From: Thermomonas sp.
GTDB taxonomy: Bacteria > Pseudomonadota > Gammaproteobacteria > Xanthomonadales > Xanthomonadaceae
Assembly: GCF_029945965.1 (NCBI RefSeq)
Contig: NZ_JAQSDO010000020.1
Span: 391,007 to 455,006 of the forward strand
Direction: 5' to 3'
DNA: 64,000 nucleotides
The notes under the pieces were generated by a model. That model was not told the origin of the DNA, made no database searches, and saw nothing but the letters and a program-made list of their open reading frames with translations. The translations under genes were made by a program, and so were the position numbers. Positions 31,331-53,998 of this stretch are shown here, in pieces. The first letter of the stretch is position 1; every line of letters begins with the position of its first letter.

Positions 31331-34300
31331 ATGACCACGGCGTTGCGGGATGCCATCGACCACACCGCGCTCGGCTGGGTGAAGCCAGAGATCGACGAGA
31401 CCCTGCGCCAGGCACGGATCGAGATCGAGGCCTTCGCCGAATCGCCGGACGATATCGAACGCATGCAGGGCTGTGCCGGGTACCTGCACCAGGTGCATGG
31501 CACCTTGCGAATGCTGGAATTGCACGCCCCGGCCATGGTTGCCGAGGAAATGGAGCAGCTGGCACAGGCCCTGGCTGCGGACACGACTACCGGGCGCGAC
31601 GATGCCTGTTCGGTGTTGATGCGTGGTGTGGTGCAATTGCCGGACTATCTGGAACGCCTGCAGGGCGGCCATCGCGACATCCCGATCGTATTGCTGCCAC
31701 TGCTGAATGAGCTGCGCGCCTCGCGCGGCGAGCCGATGCTGGCGCAGGATGCCTTGCCCAGCCTGCTCGAAGAGCCGACCGAAGCCGAACTCGAACACGC
31801 CCGTGGCAGCCTTGCTGGCCGCAACCGGGCCCTGCTCGACACGGTGTCGGCGGCGCTCAAGGAAGACCTGTTGCGGGTCAAGGACGCACTGGATCTGCAC
31901 CTGCGCTCCGGCACCACCGATGGTGCTGCACTCAAGCCGCAGGCGGAATCGCTGGATCGCATCGGCGAAACCCTCGGCATGGTCGGCCTCGAAGCCTCGC
32001 GCGGCGTGATCCGCGAACAGGGCAGGATCATGCATGCCATCGCCAATGGCGAGCGGCCCTCCAGCGAAAGCGAGTTGCTCGACGTCGCTGGCGCACTGAT
32101 CTATATCGAACACTCGCTGGACGATCAGGTCGGCCGGCTTGGGCAGGACAATGCGGGCGCCGGCACTGATGCCGACGACCTGCTGGCGCAGGAATCACGC
32201 AAGGTCATGGGTGCGTTGGCCCACGAAGCCGTCGCCAATTTCGCTGAAGTGCGCAATGCATTCGTTGCTTTCGTGGAAACCGATTGGGACCACGCTGCAC
32301 TAGAACCGGTGCCGCGCCTGTTGGCCGAAGTCGCGGGTGCGATGCGCATCCTGCAACTGCCCGAACCTGCTGGTTATCTTGAGGCATTGCGTCGCTATAG
32401 CCACGCCGAACTGATCAGCAAGCAGCAGATCCCGGGTGGCCGCGACCTGGATACCATGGCTGATGCCCTGGCCGGAATGGAGTACTACCTCGAGTCCCTG
32501 CATGATCCGCACGGCCAGCGCCAGGACCTGCTCGACAAGACCCGTGACAGCCTGGAGGCCTTGGCCTACTGGCCGCTGCCGGGCGGTGAACTCGAAATCG
32601 ACCTGCCAGCGTCGGAAGCTGCGGATGCAGGCGATACGCAAGCGGCAGGTTCGCAAGCGGCCGATATAGAGGCTGTTGCCGAAGATTCGGCGTCCGAAGC
32701 AGCTGCGCCTGCAGTAGTGTCTTCGCAAGCCAGCGCACCCATGATCAGTGCTGGGTTCGATGCCGCCGGCGACGAAATCGACGACGAAATCCGCGAGATC
32801 TTCCTGGAGGAATTCGAGGAAGAGATCAGCAACCTGGATACGCTGCTACCGCTCTGGCGCCGCGCGCCGGATAACGCCGAACAGTTGCGCCCGATCCGTC
32901 GCGTGTTCCACACGCTGAAGGGTAGTGGCCGGTTGGTTGGCGCCAAGACCTTGGGTGAATTCAGCTGGCATGTGGAGAACATGCTCAATCGCGTGCTTGA
33001 TGGCTCGCGTCCTGCCAGTCATGCGGTGTTGGCCTTCGTCGGCCAAGTCCGTGACGCGCTGCCGCAGTTGCTTGCCGCGCTGAAGGGCGAGGCCGCCGTG
33101 AACATCGATATTGCGGCGATGCAAGCCGTCTCGGACCGTCTGGGGGCGGGCGAAGATGTCCTGCTGGATGTGCTGCCAGTCGGCGGCACGGCTACTGCTG
33201 GTGAAGTGGCTGCAGTGGAAGCAGAGGTGGTTCCCACGTCGGATACTGTGGCCGTGCAGGTCGATCCGGTCCTGCTGGAAATCCTCGGTGGCGAAGTTGG
33301 AAGCCATCTCGAAACAATCGATGCCTGGCTGGCGCAGGCGCGCGCTGGCGACGGCGACGTCAATGCTGGTCTGTTGCGCGCGATCCACACCCTCAATGGC
33401 GCCTTCGCGATGACCGAAGTGCCGTCGGTGACGGCCTTCACCACGCCTGCGGAAGGGTATGTGAAGCGCCTGCTGGCCGCGTCCAAGTCAGCTGATGACG
33501 ATGGCATCTCCGCCATTGGCGAAGTTGCCGACGCGATCCGAACCTCGACCGCGGCCCTGCAGAGCACGCCGACCCATGTGCCGCTGTTCGCGACGCTGGT
33601 GGCACGCATTGCCGGTATGCGTGACGGCTTGCCCGAAGCCACCCTGCCATTCCCGGTCGTGGATAACGAGGCAGAAGCAGAAGCAGAAGCCGCCCGCATC
33701 GACGCCGAGCTGGACGAAGCCGAACGCGTTGCAGCAGAAGAAGCTGAAGCTGCCCGCATCGCCGCCGAGCAGGCCGAAATCGAGCGTCTTGCTGCCGAAG
33801 AGGCCGAAGCGGTGCGTATTGCCAGCGAGCAGGCGGAAGCCGAACGTATTGCTACCGAGGAAGCCGAAGCGGCTCACATCGCTGCCGAGCAAGCGGAAAT
33901 CGAACGTCTTGCTGCCGAAGAAGCCGAAGCCGCCCGCATCGCTGCGGAGCAGGTCGAAGCCGAACGTCTTGCAGCAGAAGAAGCTGAGGCGGCGCGAATT
34001 GCCGCTGCACAGACCGAAGCCGAGCGAGCTGCGGCCGAAGAAGCCAAGGCAGCCCGTATTGCTGCCGAGCAGGCGGAAGCCGAGCGCGTCGCGGCCGAGG
34101 AAGCCGAAGCGGCCCGCTTTGCCGCCGAGCAGGCGGAAATCGAACGTCTTGCCGCCGAGGAAGCAGAACTGGCGCGTATTGCTGCCGAGCAGGCCGAAGC
34201 CGAGCGCGTGGCTGCCGAGCAGGCCGAAGCGGCGCAGTTTGCCGCCGAGCAGGCGGAGGCCGAACGACTCGAAGCCGAGCGCATCGAGACCGAACGTCTG

Positions 34301-36946
34301 GAAATGGAGCGGGTTGCAGCGGAAGAAGCGACCCGGATCGCCGCAGAGAAAGTCGAAGCCGAACGTCTGGAAGCCGAACGCGGCGAAGCGGATCGGCTCG
34401 AAGCCGAACGCATCATGGCCGCCAGGGCCGAGTCGGAGCGCATCGAGGCCGAGCGCATCGCCGCCGAGCGGGCGGAAGCGGCCCGGCTTGAAGCACAGCG
34501 GCGCGCAGAGGAGATCGCAGCAGCGGCCAAGGCGCGCGAACAGGCGGCGTTGGAAGCATTGCTGGCCAGCGCCACCTCGACCGACGATCCAGACGAAGCG
34601 CTCGACATGAGCGGGCTGGATCCGGAGCTGGTCGACATCTTCGTGGAAGAAGGCGGCGACCTGCTGGATCACTCTGATGGCCTGCTTGCGCAGTTGCGCG
34701 AGACCCCGGAAGACCGCGAAGCGATGGTCGGCTTGCAACGCGACCTGCATACCATGAAGGGTGGCGCACGCATGGCTGGCGTGATGGCGGTCGGCGAGCT
34801 CGGCCATGCCATGGAAACCTTGCTTGAAGCAGTGGTTGCCCAGCGTGCGGAGCTTGGTGCCGATGGCGTGCCGCTGCTGGAGCGTGGCTTCGACCGCCTG
34901 CATGGAATGATCACCCGCGTCGCCGCGCGTCGTGCCGTGGGCATGCCCGTCGGTCTTATCGACGATTTCAACAACCGTGCCGAAACCCCGATTGCCGCGG
35001 TCGAAGCAGTGGACGACGGAATCGCCTTCGCCCCCGTCGTCAGGAAGGTCGAACTCAAGGCGTTGTCGTCGCCGTTGATGGCCGACGGTTTCGGCGACGA
35101 CGACGAGATCGGCGTGCGTGCGCCGCAGGAACAGGTCCGCATCCGCGCCGACCTGCTTGATCGCCTGGTGAACTACGCCGGCGAAGTGGCGATCTATCGT
35201 TCTCGCCTGGAGCAGCAGCTCGGGGCCTTCCGCGGTACCGCCGCGGAAATGGAACAGACCAACATCCGCCTGCGCGATCAGTTGCGCCGCCTGGATGCGG
35301 AAACCGAAGCTCAGATCATCGCCCGTTTCCAGCGTGAGTCGGACACCAGCGACGGCAGCTTCGATCCGCTCGAGCTTGATCGTTTCAGCACCCTGCAGCA
35401 GCTGTCGCGTGCACTGGCCGAGTCCGCAGCCGACTTGGTGAGCCTGCATGGCTCGATGGAAGACCTGACCCGTCAGTACGAAACCCTGCTGTTGCAGCAG
35501 TCGCGGGTGAGTTCGGAGTTGCAGGAAGGCCTCATGCGCACACGCATGGTGCCATTCGATGCCTTGGTGCCGCGCCTGCGCCGGGTCATCCGCCAGGCCA
35601 CCGGCGAAACTGGCAAGAACGCCCAGTTAAAGCTCGATGGAGCACAGGGCGAACTCGACCGCAACGTGCTGGAGCGCATGACCGCACCGCTGGAGCACAT
35701 GCTCCGCAACGCGGTGGCCCATGGTCTGGAAACCCCGGACGAACGTCGCAAGGCGGGCAAACCGGCGGAAGGCAGCATCCGCGTCGCGGTCCGCCGCGAA
35801 GGTTCGGAAGTAGTGTTGCAGGTCAGCGACGATGGTCACGGCCTGGACCGCGAGGCCATCCGCGCCCGCGCGATCGAGCGTGGCCTGATCAAGCCAGACG
35901 CAATACTCGGCGACAGCGATCTGTACGTGCTGATCCTGGAGGCGGGGTTCTCCACCGCACAGACAGTCAGCCGCCTGGCTGGCCGTGGCGTCGGCTTGGA
36001 CGTGGTGGCCAGCGAAGTGCGCCAGCTTGGCGGCACGCTGGACATCTCGTCGATCCCGGGCGAGGGCACGATGTTCACCCTGCGCCTGCCGCAGACGTTG
36101 GCGGTGACCCAGGCAGTGTTCGTCAAGATCGGCGAGACCCAGTTCGCGGTTCCGATTGCGTCGGTTCGCGGCGTGGGTCGCATCACCCGCGAGGAACTCG
36201 CAACATCCGATACCACCTACCGCTACGGCGGCGAGGACTACGCGTTGCACGACCTGGGCCGGCTTGTCGGCACCGGCACGGCGAAGGCGGAAGGCCAGTT
36301 GCAGATGCCGTTGCTGTTGGTGCGTGCTGGCGACCTGCGCGCAGCGGTGGTGATCGACCAGGTGGTTGGCAACCGCGAAATCGTGGTGAAGTCCGGTGGC
36401 CCGCAATTGGCATCGATCCCGGGTATCTTCGGCGCCACCATCATGGGTGATGGCAGCGTGGTGGTGATCCTGGACGTGGCACCGCTGGTGCGCCGTGCCG
36501 CCGCCATGCCTCACGATGCCGTGCCGGTCCAGCAGAAGGTCGAACAGCGCCATGTGCCGCTGGTCATGGTCGTCGACGACTCGGTCACCATGCGCAAGGT
36601 CACCAGCCGCGTGCTGGAACGCAACAACTTCGAGGTGGCGACCGCGAAGGACGGCATCGACGCACTCGAACGCATGGCCGACATGATCCCCGACCTGATG
36701 CTGCTCGATATCGAAATGCCGCGCATGGACGGCTACGAGTTGGCGACGGCGATGAAGGCGGATCCGCGCATGCGCAACGTGCCGATCATCATGATCACCT
36801 CGCGTACCGGCGAGAAACATCGCCAGCGTGCAATGGACCTCGGCGTGCAAGGCTACCTCGGCAAGCCGTATCAGGAGGTCGAGCTCATGCGTAACGTATT
36901 CGACCTGCTCGGCGTTGAGCACGTCGGCGCCGGCGCCGGCTCGTGA
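31331..36946 (+). CDS. chpA: Hybrid chemosensory histidine kinase ChpA/PilL with Ala/Glu repeat linker
   Basis: The protein has 1871 residues. The N-terminal PilL/FrzE-like region has an HQVHGTLRM Hpt-like motif. Clear Hpt motifs are [13 protein letters not shown] (His about 527), IHTLNGAF (about 686) and [13 protein letters not shown] (about 1140). Between the last two lies a 20-residue repeat tract (about 780-1075). The kinase core has an H2-type dimerisation region, [14 protein letters not shown] (N box), VSDDGHGLD and GRGVGLDVV; a CheW domain follows, and a C-terminal receiver (Asp in [12 protein letters not shown], about 1793). It phosphorylates PilG and PilH. P. aeruginosa ChpA has more Hpt domains. 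The stop overlaps the next GTG start (GTGA). Confidence 0.95.
33721..34320 (+). repeat. Ten 60-bp repeats inside chpA encoding Ala/Glu/Arg-rich helix
   Basis: From 33721 each 60-base block encodes a 20-residue unit of the form [20 protein letters not shown], about nine recognisable copies followed by more diverged ERLEAERxE blocks to about 34500. The period is exact, with no indels. Third-position changes are frequent, so the copies are old enough to have diverged synonymously while the protein pattern was kept. The regular spacing of acidic and basic residues predicts a long alpha-helix or coiled coil, similar in kind to TolA domain II. Confidence 0.9.
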
Positions 36947-41220: not shown

Positions 41221-42008
41221 CCATGACATGCGCATTGCGCGATCTAGTCATCGCCATCGCTCGTCAAGCTGCTGCCGATATCCTGGAGGTGTACCAAGGT
41301 GCCTTCGATGTCGAGCACAAGGACGATCGTTCGCCGCTGACCGCCGCCGACCTCGCGTCGCATCGCCGCATCGTCGCTGGCTTGCAGGCGCTGACGCCCG
41401 AGATTCCGGTGTTGTCGGAAGAATCCAAAAGCCTCGAAATCGCCCAGCGGCGCACCTGGCCGCGGTTCTGGCTGGTCGATCCATTGGACGGCACCCGCGA
41501 GTTCATCAAGCGCAACGGCGAGTTCACCGTCAACATCGCCCTGATCGAGGACGGTGTGGCCACGTTCGGCGTGATCCAGCAGCCGGTCGGTGGTGGCTTG
41601 TGGCATGGCATGTTGGGCGCAGGTGCGTTCCGTCGAGACGGTGATATCGATGCCGGCATCCACGTGCGCAAGCCAGCGAACGCGCCGCTGCGGATCGCTG
41701 CCAGCCGTTCGCATCGCGACGCGCGCACGCAGGCCTTGCTGGATGTGCTCACTGGCAGTGAAGCTATCGCCTGCGGCTCGTCGCTGAAGTTCTGCCGGAT
41801 CGCCGAAGGTGAGCTCGACCTGTACCCGCGTTTCGGCCCGACCAGCGAATGGGACACAGCCGCCGGCCAGGCGATCCTTGAAGCTGCGGGTGGCGCGGTG
41901 CTGGATCCATGCGGACGGCCGTTCCGCTACAACCAGCGCGACACATTGCTCAATGGTGATTTCATCGCATTCGGCGATGTCGCCCTGCGCGATAGCTTGC
42001 CTGCATGA
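41217..42008 (+). CDS. cysQ: 3'(2'),5'-bisphosphate nucleotidase CysQ
   Basis: The protein has 263 residues. Inositol-monophosphatase-family metal motifs are visible: LSEESK, WLVDPLDGTREFIKRNGEF (about 84-102), and the C-terminal PTSEWDTAAGQAILEAAGG. CysQ removes the 3' phosphate from PAP/PAPS in sulfate assimilation. It is coupled to nudE and is followed by mazG after ten bases. Confidence 0.94.
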   Translation: MTMTCALRDLVIAIARQAAADILEVYQGAFDVEHKDDRSPLTAADLASHRRIVAGLQALTPEIPVLSEESKSLEIAQRRTWPRFWLVDPLDGTREFIKRNGEFTVNIALIEDGVATFGVIQQPVGGGLWHGMLGAGAFRRDGDIDAGIHVRKPANAPLRIAASRSHRDARTQALLDVLTGSEAIACGSSLKFCRIAEGELDLYPRFGPTSEWDTAAGQAILEAAGGAVLDPCGRPFRYNQRDTLLNGDFIAFGDVALRDSLPA

Positions 42009-42018
42009 GCGATCCGGC

Positions 42019-42987
42019 ATGAACAAGAGATGCGACATCGATTCACTGCTGGCGATCATGGCCGCGCTGCGCGATCCGAAAACCGGTTGTTTGTGGGACG
42101 TCGAGCAGACCTTCGCCACTATCGCGCCGTACACCATCGAGGAATCCTATGAAGTCGCCGATGCGATCGATCGTGGCGATACCGACGGGCTGAAAGACGA
42201 GTTGGGCGACCTGCTGCTGCAGGTCGTGTTCCATGCGCGCATGGCGCAGGAGCAGGGCAGCTTCGAGTTCGGCGATGTGGTTGCAGCGATTTGCGACAAG
42301 ATGACCCGGCGCCACCCGCATGTATTTGCCGCACAGGGATGTGCAAATGCCGCGGGAGGCAGGATGCCGGGAGCGGCGGCCGCACATGGATGTGCAAATG
42401 CCGCGGGAGGCAGGATGCCGGGAGCGGCGGCCGCAGATGGACATGCGAATCTCGTGGGAGGTAGCCTCGAGGATGTGCAGGCACAAACCCGCTCGTGGGA
42501 AGCACACAAGCGCGCCGAACGCGCGGCACGTGGTGAATCCGACGACTCTGCGCTGGCCGGTATCTCGCGTGGCCTGCCCGAGTGGCAGCGTGCGTTGAAA
42601 CTGCAGCAAAAGGCGGCGCGGGTCGGCTTCGACTGGCCGGGCCCGGCGCCGGTGATCGAGAAACTGCACGAGGAAATCGAGGAAGTGCGCGTTGAATTCG
42701 CAGCGGTTGCAGCCGATCCCGATGATGCGGAAGCGCAACTGCGACTTGAGGATGAACTCGGTGACCTACTCTTCGTGTGCGCAAACTTGACCCGGCATGC
42801 CAAGGTCGATTTCGGTGCTGCAATGCGCCGGGCCAACCACAAGTTCGAACGCCGTTTTCGCATGATGGAAGCGTTGGCACAGACTGACGGTGGGCTTGCC
42901 GGGCAATCGCTTGAAGCGCAGGATCGTTACTGGGTGCAGGCCAAGCAGGCCGAGAAAGGGCAAGCCACCAAAGGGGATGCGCCATGA
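42019..42987 (+). CDS. mazG: Nucleoside triphosphate pyrophosphohydrolase MazG with in-frame 17-residue repeats
   Basis: The protein has 322 residues against about 265 in E. coli. The first MazG domain has CLWDVEQTFATIAPYTIEESYEV and DELGDLLLQVVFHARM; the second has LHEEIEEVR and LEDELGDLLFVCANLTRH, with the C-terminal NHKFERRFR. MazG hydrolyses NTPs to NMP and PPi and limits ppGpp. Between HPHVFA and the SLEDVQAQTRSWEAHKRAER segment, two near-identical 17-residue repeats and a partial third are inserted at the domain junction. Its stop overlaps the next start (ATGA). Confidence 0.94.
   Translation: MNKRCDIDSLLAIMAALRDPKTGCLWDVEQTFATIAPYTIEESYEVADAIDRGDTDGLKDELGDLLLQVVFHARMAQEQGSFEFGDVVAAICDKMTRRHPHVFAAQGCANAAGGRMPGAAAAHGCANAAGGRMPGAAAADGHANLVGGSLEDVQAQTRSWEAHKRAERAARGESDDSALAGISRGLPEWQRALKLQQKAARVGFDWPGPAPVIEKLHEEIEEVRVEFAAVAADPDDAEAQLRLEDELGDLLFVCANLTRHAKVDFGAAMRRANHKFERRFRMMEALAQTDGGLAGQSLEAQDRYWVQAKQAEKGQATKGDAP
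42337..42462 (+). repeat. Tandem 51-bp repeats inside mazG
   Basis: Two copies of a 51-base unit (42337-42387 and 42388-42438) differ at one base and encode GCANAAGGRMPGAAAA(H/D). A partial third copy (42439-42462, GHANLVGG) is more diverged. The near identity points to recent duplication. The unit length is a multiple of three, so the reading frame is kept. Confidence 0.9.
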
Positions 42988-52193: not shown

Positions 52194-53129
52194 ATGCCCA
52201 TCCTGCACCAGATCAATCCGATCGCCCTTGACCTGGGCACCTGGACCCTGCCGATCCTTGGCAGCGTGCATCCGCAAGTCCATTGGTACGGACTGATGTA
52301 CCTGCTGGGCTTCGGCGTGGCGTGGTGGCTGGGGCGACGGCGGGTGCGCATGGGGCGGTTGCCGGGCGTGGACGAAAATGGTTTTGGCGACCTGATGTTC
52401 TACGCCATGCTCGGCGTGGTGCTGGGCGGCCGCTTCGGCTACATACTTTTCTACAACTTCGGCGATTTCCTCAAGGATCCGCTGATGCTGTTCAAGGTCT
52501 GGGAAGGCGGCATGAGCTTCCATGGCGGCCTGCTCGGGGTAATGGCGGCGATCGGCTGGTGGGCGCGCAGGCATCGCCTGCATTATTTCGACGTGGTCGA
52601 TTTCATTGCGCCGCTGGTGCCGGCCGGGCTGGGATTTGGCCGTATCGGCAACTACATCGGTGGCGAGTTGTGGGGCAAGCCGACGCAAGGCACCGCATTC
52701 GAAAGCTGGGGCGTGGTGTTCCCGCGCTCGCTGCCAGAGCCGTTCGCGTCGATGAATGCTGCGACCCTGCGCGCGCAGTTCGATGCCGGCATCCTCGACA
52801 GCTTCGCCCGCCACCCGTCGCAGCTTTACCAGGCCACGCTGGAAGGCTTGGTCCTGTTCTGCGTGCTGGTCTGGTATTCACGTAAACCGCGTCCACGCTA
52901 TGCCGTTTCAGGCCTGTTCGCGCTGCTGTACGGCGTATTCCGTTTCGCGGTGGAATTCGTGCGCGAACCTGACCAGCAACTTGGCTACCTGGCCTTCGGC
53001 TGGTTGACCATGGGCCAGGTGCTGAGCGCGCCGCTGATCCTGCTGGGCCTGTTCTGGCTATGGAAGTCGCATAGCTCGCCAACCCTGCAACCCGTGCCAA
53101 TCCCCGTGGATGAGGATGCGGCGCGATGA
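52194..53129 (+). CDS. lgt: Prolipoprotein diacylglyceryl transferase Lgt
   Basis: The protein has 311 residues with about seven transmembrane helices. The Lgt signature is [18 protein letters not shown], plus [16 protein letters not shown] and the N-terminal [12 protein letters not shown]. It transfers diacylglycerol from phosphatidylglycerol to the lipobox Cys of prolipoproteins. An AAGGA site precedes the start. The stop overlaps the first ATG of a mini-ORF array leading to thyA; lgt-thyA adjacency is also found in E. coli. Confidence 0.96.
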
Positions 53130-53203
53130 AGCCACTTGCCGGAGGCAAGAAATGAAGCCCCTTGCCGGAGGCAAGAAATGAAGCCCCTTGCCGGAGGCAA
53201 GAA
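53126..53203 (+). repeat. Three tandem 26-bp units with overlapping nine-codon mini-ORFs between lgt and thyA
   Basis: Units at 53126-53151, 53152-53177 and 53178-53203 differ at one base. Each starts ATGAAG, carries CTTGCC-GGA-GGCAAG (a six-base stem whose loop and arm hold GGAGG) and ends AAGAA before the next ATG. Each encodes MKPLAGGKK and its TGA overlaps the next ATG (ATGA). The chain therefore runs lgt stop, mini-ORF 1 (53126-53155), 2 (53152-53181), 3 (53178-53207), thyA ATG 53204, with four successive overlaps. Translation of the mini-ORFs is inferred. Confidence 0.85.
53187..53203 (+). promoter_or_regulatory. Hairpin-embedded Shine-Dalgarno of thyA
   Basis: GGAGG at 53193-53197 is six bases from the thyA ATG (53204). 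It lies within the hairpin CTTGCC (53187-53192), GGA loop, GGCAAG (53196-53201), so part of the site is paired when the stem forms. The same arrangement recurs at 53135-53149 and 53161-53175. Confidence 0.6.
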
Positions 53204-53998
53204 ATGAAGCAATACCTCGACCTGCTAAGGCATGTGCTGGAACACGGCACCGAAAAGGCCGACCGCACCGGCACCGGTACCCGCAGCGTGTTCGGCTGGC
53301 AGATGCGCTTCGACCTGGCCCAGGGCTTCCCGCTTGTCACCACCAAGAAACTGCACCTGCGCTCGATCATCCATGAGCTGCTGTGGTTCCTGCAGGGTGA
53401 AACCAATATCGCCTACCTGACCGCCAACAAGGTCGGCATCTGGGATGAGTGGGCCGATGAGCAGGGCGAGCTTGGCCCGGTCTACGGCAAGCAGTGGCGC
53501 AGCTGGGAAGACGCGGATGGGCGCCAGATCGACCAGATCCGTTGGGTCGTCGACGAGATCAAGCGCAACCCGGATTCGCGCCGGCTGATCGTGTCGGCAT
53601 GGAACGTGGCCGACCTGCCACGCATGGCATTGATGCCCTGCCACACACTGTTCCAGTTCTATGTGGCCGACGGAAAGCTGAGTTGCCAGCTGTACCAGCG
53701 TAGCGGCGACATTTTCCTGGGCGTGCCATTCAACATCGCCAGCTACGCATTGCTCACCCAGATGGTGGCGCAGGTGTGCGGGCTGGGTGTTGGCGATTTC
53801 GTGCACACGCTGGGCGATGCGCACCTGTATTCGAACCATTTCGAACAGGCTCGCGAACAGCTTTCACGCGCGCCGCGCGCGTTGCCGACACTGAAGCTCA
53901 ACCCGGATGTCGATGACATCTTCGGTTTCAGCTTCGACGACATCGCGATCGAAGGTTACGATCCGCTACCTGCGATCAAGGCACCCGTTGCGGTGTGA
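53204..53998 (+). CDS. thyA: Thymidylate synthase ThyA
   Basis: The protein has 264 residues, identical in length to the E. coli enzyme. It shows [28 protein letters not shown], the catalytic Cys in [12 protein letters not shown], and [20 protein letters not shown] with [12 protein letters not shown]. It methylates dUMP to dTMP using methylene-tetrahydrofolate. The start at 53204 follows GGAGG by six bases; frames beginning further upstream only read the tandem repeats. folA follows after ten bases and regenerates the tetrahydrofolate used here. Confidence 0.97.

Follow-up and report, generated by a model that had tools for sequence, protein, structure and literature searches.

Translational coupling between neighbouring genes requires that they overlap or lie a very short distance apart, yet gene pairs drift apart. 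How coupling could survive such drift is the question raised by the junction of lgt and thyA in the 64,000-nucleotide stretch of Thermomonas sp. DNA analysed here (the window), where three near-identical 26-bp units, each with a tiny open reading frame (ORF), stand between the two genes. We consider it probable, at roughly 0.78, that the units form a series of mini-ORFs that bridge the gap and preserve the translational coupling of thyA to lgt, and that the mini-ORFs restore the overlap that the gap would otherwise have removed.

Three tandem units between lgt and thyA

Direct reading of positions 53126-53203 gives ATGAAGCC[A/C]CTTGCCGGAGGCAAGAA three times, followed by thyA ATGAAGC (Table 1). 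A single base sets unit 1 apart from units 2 and 3, and Tandem Repeats Finder reports a period of 26, 3.3 copies, 98% matches and a score of 163. An earlier sequence-only reading of this DNA had described three 26-bp units, one base different, with a nine-codon ORF in each, and the letters bear this out exactly.

The lgt stop TGA (53127-53129) overlaps the ATG of mini-ORF 1 at 53126 by 4 nt, and the mini-ORF TGAs overlap the next ATGs at 53152, 53178 and 53204, the last of these being the start of thyA. All four junctions along the path from lgt through three mini-ORFs to thyA are therefore ATGA, as read directly and as traced by a script. The four overlaps put forward earlier are all present; as evidence they are not independent, because they follow from one stop-free unit, with a length of 26 that is 2 mod 3, repeating over an ATGA junction. 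They are one observation, not four coincidences, and the repeat itself is not due to chance.

GGAGG occurs at 53141-53145, 53167-53171 and 53193-53197, each time within CTTGCC-GGA-GGCAAG. Each mini-ORF encloses the GGAGG of the next start and ends on that start, which is the arrangement of a bicistronic leader ORF. Predicted Shine-Dalgarno duplexes amount to -6.6 kcal/mol for mini-ORF 1 and -8.8 kcal/mol for mini-ORFs 2 and 3 and for thyA, computed with an assumed anti-Shine-Dalgarno sequence.

Table 1. Features of the lgt-thyA junction, in window coordinates
Feature	Position	Strand	Basis or remark
lgt (prolipoprotein diacylglyceryl transferase)	52194..53129	+	ORF; NCBIfam TIGR00544, product 235 bits (curated cut-off 119)
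Tandem array, three 26-bp units	53126..53203	+	Tandem Repeats Finder
Mini-ORF 1, MKPLAGGKK-stop	53126..53155	+	Start overlaps lgt TGA
Hairpin CTTGCC-GGA-GGCAAG, unit 1	53135..53149	+	Holds GGAGG for mini-ORF 2
Mini-ORF 2, MKPLAGGKK-stop	53152..53181	+	
Hairpin, unit 2	53161..53175	+	Holds GGAGG for mini-ORF 3
Mini-ORF 3, MKPLAGGKK-stop	53178..53207	+	TGA overlaps thyA ATG
Hairpin, unit 3	53187..53201	+	Holds GGAGG for thyA
thyA (thymidylate synthase)	53204..53998	+	NCBIfam NF002497, product 489 bits (curated cut-off 327)

One register at gapped junctions

The sample comprised 377 loci, representing 293 distinct lgt-thyA junctions. The two genes overlap or lie at most 4 nt apart in 189 of these (gap -4 in 86, -1 in 45 and 1-4 nt in 58); 79 junctions have gaps of at least 5 nt, and in 25 lgt was not found. 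Frames were counted at the 62 of the 79 wide gaps with an RTGA thyA start, where a -4 overlap is possible, which excludes the 17 without such a start and the 25 junctions without lgt. By bridge frame we mean the reading frame with a TGA overlapping the start of thyA.

Open ATG starts were found in the bridge frame at 31 of the 62 junctions (16 clusters) and in the other two frames at 0 and 0. With GTG also admitted, the bridge frame held starts at 46 junctions versus 2 and 0, or in 22 clusters versus 1 and 0, an unrestricted count that includes bridges of just two to three codons. Dropping starts fewer than 12 nt from thyA, which yield trivial ORFs, left 40 junctions with bridge-frame starts, from 16 clusters and 10 lineages, and 0 and 0 junctions with starts in the others. 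A binomial calculation over the 16 ATG clusters gives 2e-8, and one vote per genus, with the 26-bp type counted as one, gives 9 of 9 ATG lineages (about 5e-5 by hand arithmetic); the clusters are based on hand-typed genus labels, with L027, L056 and L071 placed by name or similarity, and related junctions are not independent of one another.

When TTG starts and TGATG overlaps are included, a bridging mini-ORF is found in 50 of the 79 wide gaps, and in 34 of these 50 its first start overlaps the lgt stop. Even on these broader terms no bridge is present in 12 of the 62 RTGA gaps, and a single genus (g46), whose gaps often contain a GGAGA-like site, accounts for 8 of these 12; bridging is therefore not obligatory. 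No bias was seen at the 17 wide gaps that lack an RTGA start (one junction each for the thyA and bridge frames). Nor was there a bridge bias in a thyA-folA control, where folA starts are less certain: with 96 distinct junctions kept from 146 loci, the folA frame accounted for 21, the third frame for 5 and the bridge frame for 14 of 46 gaps of at least 5 nt.

The 26-bp unit in relatives

A 26-bp-spaced pattern 5' of thyA occurs in 16 of 395 family genomes, the window's included, which represent 5 of 54 genera. In each of the 16 there is a nine-codon ORF with its TGA on the ATG of thyA, and hand translation gives the peptides as MKPFAGGEP, MRPFAGGKE, MKRLAGGKQ and similar; one-unit relatives occur in five genera. 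The window's own genus, from a collection with one genome per species, takes in Thermomonas hydrothermalis and T. haemolytica (identical junctions, L106 = L023 and L040 = L012). Among the 24 of its 25 genomes in which thyA was found, the gap is -1 in 15, -4 in 5 and 11 in 1; two have a gap of 22 (one unit), and the window alone has one of 74 (three units). Unit number thus varies across species, being 0, 1 or 3 in this genus and apparently 2 in two genomes elsewhere.

With further loci added, the 26-bp type comprises 24 distinct junctions, and the bridge is kept in 23. Twenty of the 23 are one-unit junctions of the nine-codon kind (one, L320, is a codon shorter and has a TGATG overlap), one is the window, and two, L353 and L356, have a single 17-codon ORF. 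The total length in these two is 50, still 2 mod 3, and by eye they look like two units that have each lost one base. At the remaining junction, L236, the mini-ORF start is lost, within a clade whose lgt already stops 7 nt upstream. The sequence-only reading had named relatives with the same units and broken frames as the case that would tell against it, and this case was encountered at one of the 24 junctions, L236, the frame being kept at all the others. L322, with a gap of 19, a TTG start and the register retained, may be a unit minus three bases. The comparison lends good support to the proposal that ribosomes step from lgt through the mini-ORFs to thyA: relatives retain a mini-ORF with its stop on the thyA start, and lengths and indels keep the register.

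In a tree of thyA DNA from 146 loci, which do not include the two-unit ones, the 26-bp label needs 13 changes and the one-unit group 12, at least 8 of them on well-supported branches. This patchy distribution argues against a single origin of the type. The 13 label changes imply repeated gain, loss or transfer, among which the tree cannot discriminate.

Mini-ORF chains of other sequence and junction variants

Chains of mini-ORFs are also found with other sequences. A Lysobacter metagenome-assembled genome (L049) has three 14-bp units encoding MKPAR, MKACQ and MKPAE, each followed by a TGA that lies on the following ATG; the unit length of 14 again equals 2 mod 3, and 13 nt separate the lgt stop from the first start. 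Two junctions from one genus, L174 and L217, contain two and three non-repeat mini-ORFs, respectively, linked to lgt. A pair of very short mini-ORFs is present in both L152 and L168, and L255 is readable as two mini-ORFs if a TTG start is allowed. The Shine-Dalgarno sequence before thyA is weak or absent in L049, L174 and L217, which fits reinitiation better than fresh initiation.

Several junctions vary in other ways. Five that are Luteimonas-like (L048, L071, L212, L255 and L056) carry a different 12-codon mini-ORF, which starts 3-5 nt past the lgt stop and ends RRSR-stop, with its TGA on the thyA ATG. L047 has a 66-nt gap 5' of thyA that contains a palindrome resembling a terminator, GCCCGGCGTGATCGCCGGGC, and lacks a bridging ORF. 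On contig C86 of the draft genome G271 (L271-type), thyA comes as two pieces that overlap, covering residues 1-38 and 74-264; an assembly error or a frameshift may be the cause.

Distribution in the genome and excluded identities

In the window's own assembly (3,242,514 bases), the only exact copies of the motif are the three in this array. There were 34 matches in total, two of them with one mismatch and 29 with two, against 7 for a reversed control pattern. Context was read for 26 of the 31 near matches (of the other five, four have no locus and one is the L110 place on the opposite strand), and most of the 26 sit in long stop-free frames, which are frames and not called genes. As exact copies occur at this locus only, we rejected a dispersed or mobile element. 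One two-mismatch relative of the hairpin motif, L134 (C15:977874-977888), runs straight into an ATG (CTTGCCGGAGTCACGATG) and may be the ribosome site of another gene.

Other identities were also rejected. The single promoter-like site is weak and lies on the minus strand at 52200-52172, and the repeat is terminator-like on the minus strand only (53204-53184 and 53178-53158). An N-terminal extension of ThyA was considered because the reading frame of thyA can be extended 5' to a TTG without a stop, but relatives have no ATG or GTG in that frame. A search of 52800-53500 against Rfam returned no match at E up to 1.

Weighing the alternatives

The array could be a neutral by-product, in which slippage repeated a stretch spanning an ATGA junction, thyA initiates from the last GGAGG and the mini-ORFs are idle. 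One 26-bp repeat explains all four overlaps, a unit length of 2 mod 3 arises by chance a third of the time, the thyA GGAGG is strong, and 12 of the 62 RTGA gaps lack a bridge. We nevertheless judge this improbable, since about ten lineages show the bridge register in mini-ORFs of unrelated sequence and length, with no open start at least 12 nt upstream in the other frames, and since bridge-register starts exceed those in shuffled sequence. Counting only starts wholly in the gap, the bridge frame held 22 versus a mean of 8.0 in 500 dinucleotide shuffles (maximum 16; none as high), and the other two frames held 0 and 2 versus 8.35 and 8.23 expected; without the 26-bp type the bridge frame held 17 versus 6.2 (0 of 500 as high) and the others 0 and 0. 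There is therefore an excess in the bridge frame together with a deficit in the other frames. The deficit suits an explanation by purging, whereby starts in the other frames would overrun the thyA start and be selected against while bridge-frame starts are merely tolerated. We give this little credence as the whole account, because tolerance would leave bridge-frame starts at expectation and they stand above it with or without the 26-bp type. Purging and bridging may act together.

The hairpins suggest a different role, that of an RNA switch in which the stem hides GGAGG, serving as a thermometer, an attenuator or a stabiliser of the mRNA, with ORFs that are merely incidental. The fold of the 171-nt region is indeed better than that of shuffles (z -2.55; equalled by 1 of 200), and the covariation score is 0.210 versus 0.160 in shuffles (7 of 500 as high). 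However, the CTTGCC/GGCAAG hairpin with its GGAGG, claimed earlier and present in all three units of the window, is not general: the six-pair stem is intact in 11 of 22 distinct units and broken in the rest, and paired cells reach 81.1% versus 78.7% in shuffles (29 of 500 as high). With the covariation weak and the stem lost in half of the units, a conserved hairpin is doubtful, and the chains in L049 and L217, which have neither the 26-bp unit nor a clear Shine-Dalgarno sequence, together with the lack of an Rfam match at E up to 1, make a switch very unlikely. Hardest to credit is that the nonapeptide is functional itself or stalls ribosomes, as in arrest-peptide control. MKPFAGG-like peptides do occur in five genera, but mean entropies of 0.47, 0.71 and 0.63 at codon positions 1, 2 and 3 reveal no synonymous excess across the 22 distinct units, so that selection on the peptide was rejected, and unrelated peptides occupy the same place in other lineages. 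What seems to be kept is the frame, the stop-start overlap and GGAG, with peptide sequence and hairpin probably secondary.

Proposed mechanism and origin

Under the relay that we favour, a ribosome would end lgt at the TGA of the ATGA overlap, restart at the overlapping ATG, read nine codons, stop at the next ATGA and repeat, until the last TGA places it on the thyA start. Translating each mini-ORF would open the hairpin around the GGAGG of the next start. We infer both the translation of the mini-ORFs and this termination-reinitiation route from comparison of the junctions. In native gene pairs, coupling falls sharply with distance, being lost over some 20-40 nt, and 15 nt from the end of the upstream gene are enough for it (PMC10666635). 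A gap of 22 or 74 nt should therefore uncouple thyA from lgt unless it is bridged. Besides the bridge-free gaps and the lost start of L236, two observations count against the relay: the window's thyA has its own strong GGAGG, so direct initiation is possible, and ThyA was reportedly unaffected by Lgt depletion in an engineered E. coli strain (PMC8316002).

The array likely originated by tandem duplication of an overlapping lgt-tail/thyA-head initiation region, and extra 26-bp steps would then have been added in this species. Such an origin fits because the mini-ORF, judged by eye, resembles ThyA at its start (MKP/MKQ) and, at its end, the tails of Lgt in relatives whose genes overlap (AGGK-stop), because an RTGA thyA start is found at 62 of 79 wide gaps versus 1 of 58 gaps of 1-4 nt, and because L051 has GCCGGAGGC equally far before both starts. 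More tentatively, and with less than even odds in our estimation, whenever an indel or duplication parts lgt and thyA, selection would recapture coupling via bridges that could then expand and contract by 2 mod 3, and their length would set thymidylate synthase output.

Comparison with known systems

MIRUs, the repeat units of mycobacteria, are known for tandem copies and are longer than the 26-bp unit. Like the array, they are short repeats at stop-start junctions with an internal ORF coupled at a -4 overlap (Supply et al. 1997, via the part of PMC12548453 used here), and the 26-bp unit likewise has an internal ORF with a -4 overlap to the next gene. MIRUs differ in being dispersed over many loci and apparently mobile, in the same account (PMC12548453), whereas the unit described here lacks dispersal over many genomic loci and is found at one locus only.

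The same gene pair in the same order is known from E. coli, where thyA expression was reported to be translationally coupled to lgt (Gan et al. 1995, cited in PMC8316002). There the thyA ribosome site overlaps the lgt stop, and the excerpts of PMC8316002 describe no mini-ORF chain. Bicistronic designs and booster ORFs, as far as extracts of PMC12548453, PMC13255528 and PMC6302717 describe them, likewise use a short leader ORF that contains the Shine-Dalgarno sequence of the next gene and whose stop adjoins or sits on the next start, as here. Bicistronic designs in these extracts are engineered and single, whereas the lgt-thyA array is natural, tandem and fed by an upstream gene.

Two natural leaders are partly similar, on the evidence of passages from the papers concerned. 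The Salmonella mgtC-mgtB operon contains mgtQ (PMC8092293), likewise a tiny intergenic ORF (eight codons) that raises downstream translation; it differs in its 219-nt gap, its own AGGAGG, and a mode of action in which acidic codons free the downstream ribosome site with no stop-start overlap. In axe-txe, the two-codon minigene mg2 (PMC8708949) is a tiny ORF just upstream whose positive effect is sensitive to frame and distance; it differs in belonging to a toxin-antitoxin operon and in that mRNA protection is proposed as its main route. In its mode of action the array probably belongs with termination-reinitiation coupling; it is built like a bicistronic leader, and it is MIRU-like but undispersed. 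In the open-licence literature we found no report of mini-ORFs between lgt and thyA, and the MIRU account was the only one to describe tandem chains of ATGA-linked mini-ORFs.

Implications

Many species have tiny ORFs in one register at this junction, and some have chains of two or three. If translated, these would be minimal ORFs, down to five codons or fewer, that deliver a ribosome and not a peptide, and they would escape gene finders. An easily recombined tandem array 5' of a gene of an essential pathway is also a possible expression dial. If the more tentative scenario of recaptured coupling is true, relay coupling would be a general but unrecognised means for operons to maintain translation ratios, and the number of units would be a dial open to evolution. 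The junctions described here are natural variants for asking how many hand-overs a ribosome manages.

Other repeats in the window

Two further repeats were observed in coding sequence. At 42328-42461 an in-frame 51-bp tandem repeat of about 2.6 copies encodes a 17-residue unit, GCANAAGGRMPGAAAAH, within the ORF at 41809-42987, which we take to be MazG-like; it is a second short tandem amplification near the lgt-thyA array. At 33679-34278, repeats of 60, 120 and 180 bp encode an Ala/Glu-rich stretch of a 1871-aa ORF (31331-36946), presumably a large histidine kinase of the chemotaxis type that ends in a response regulator.
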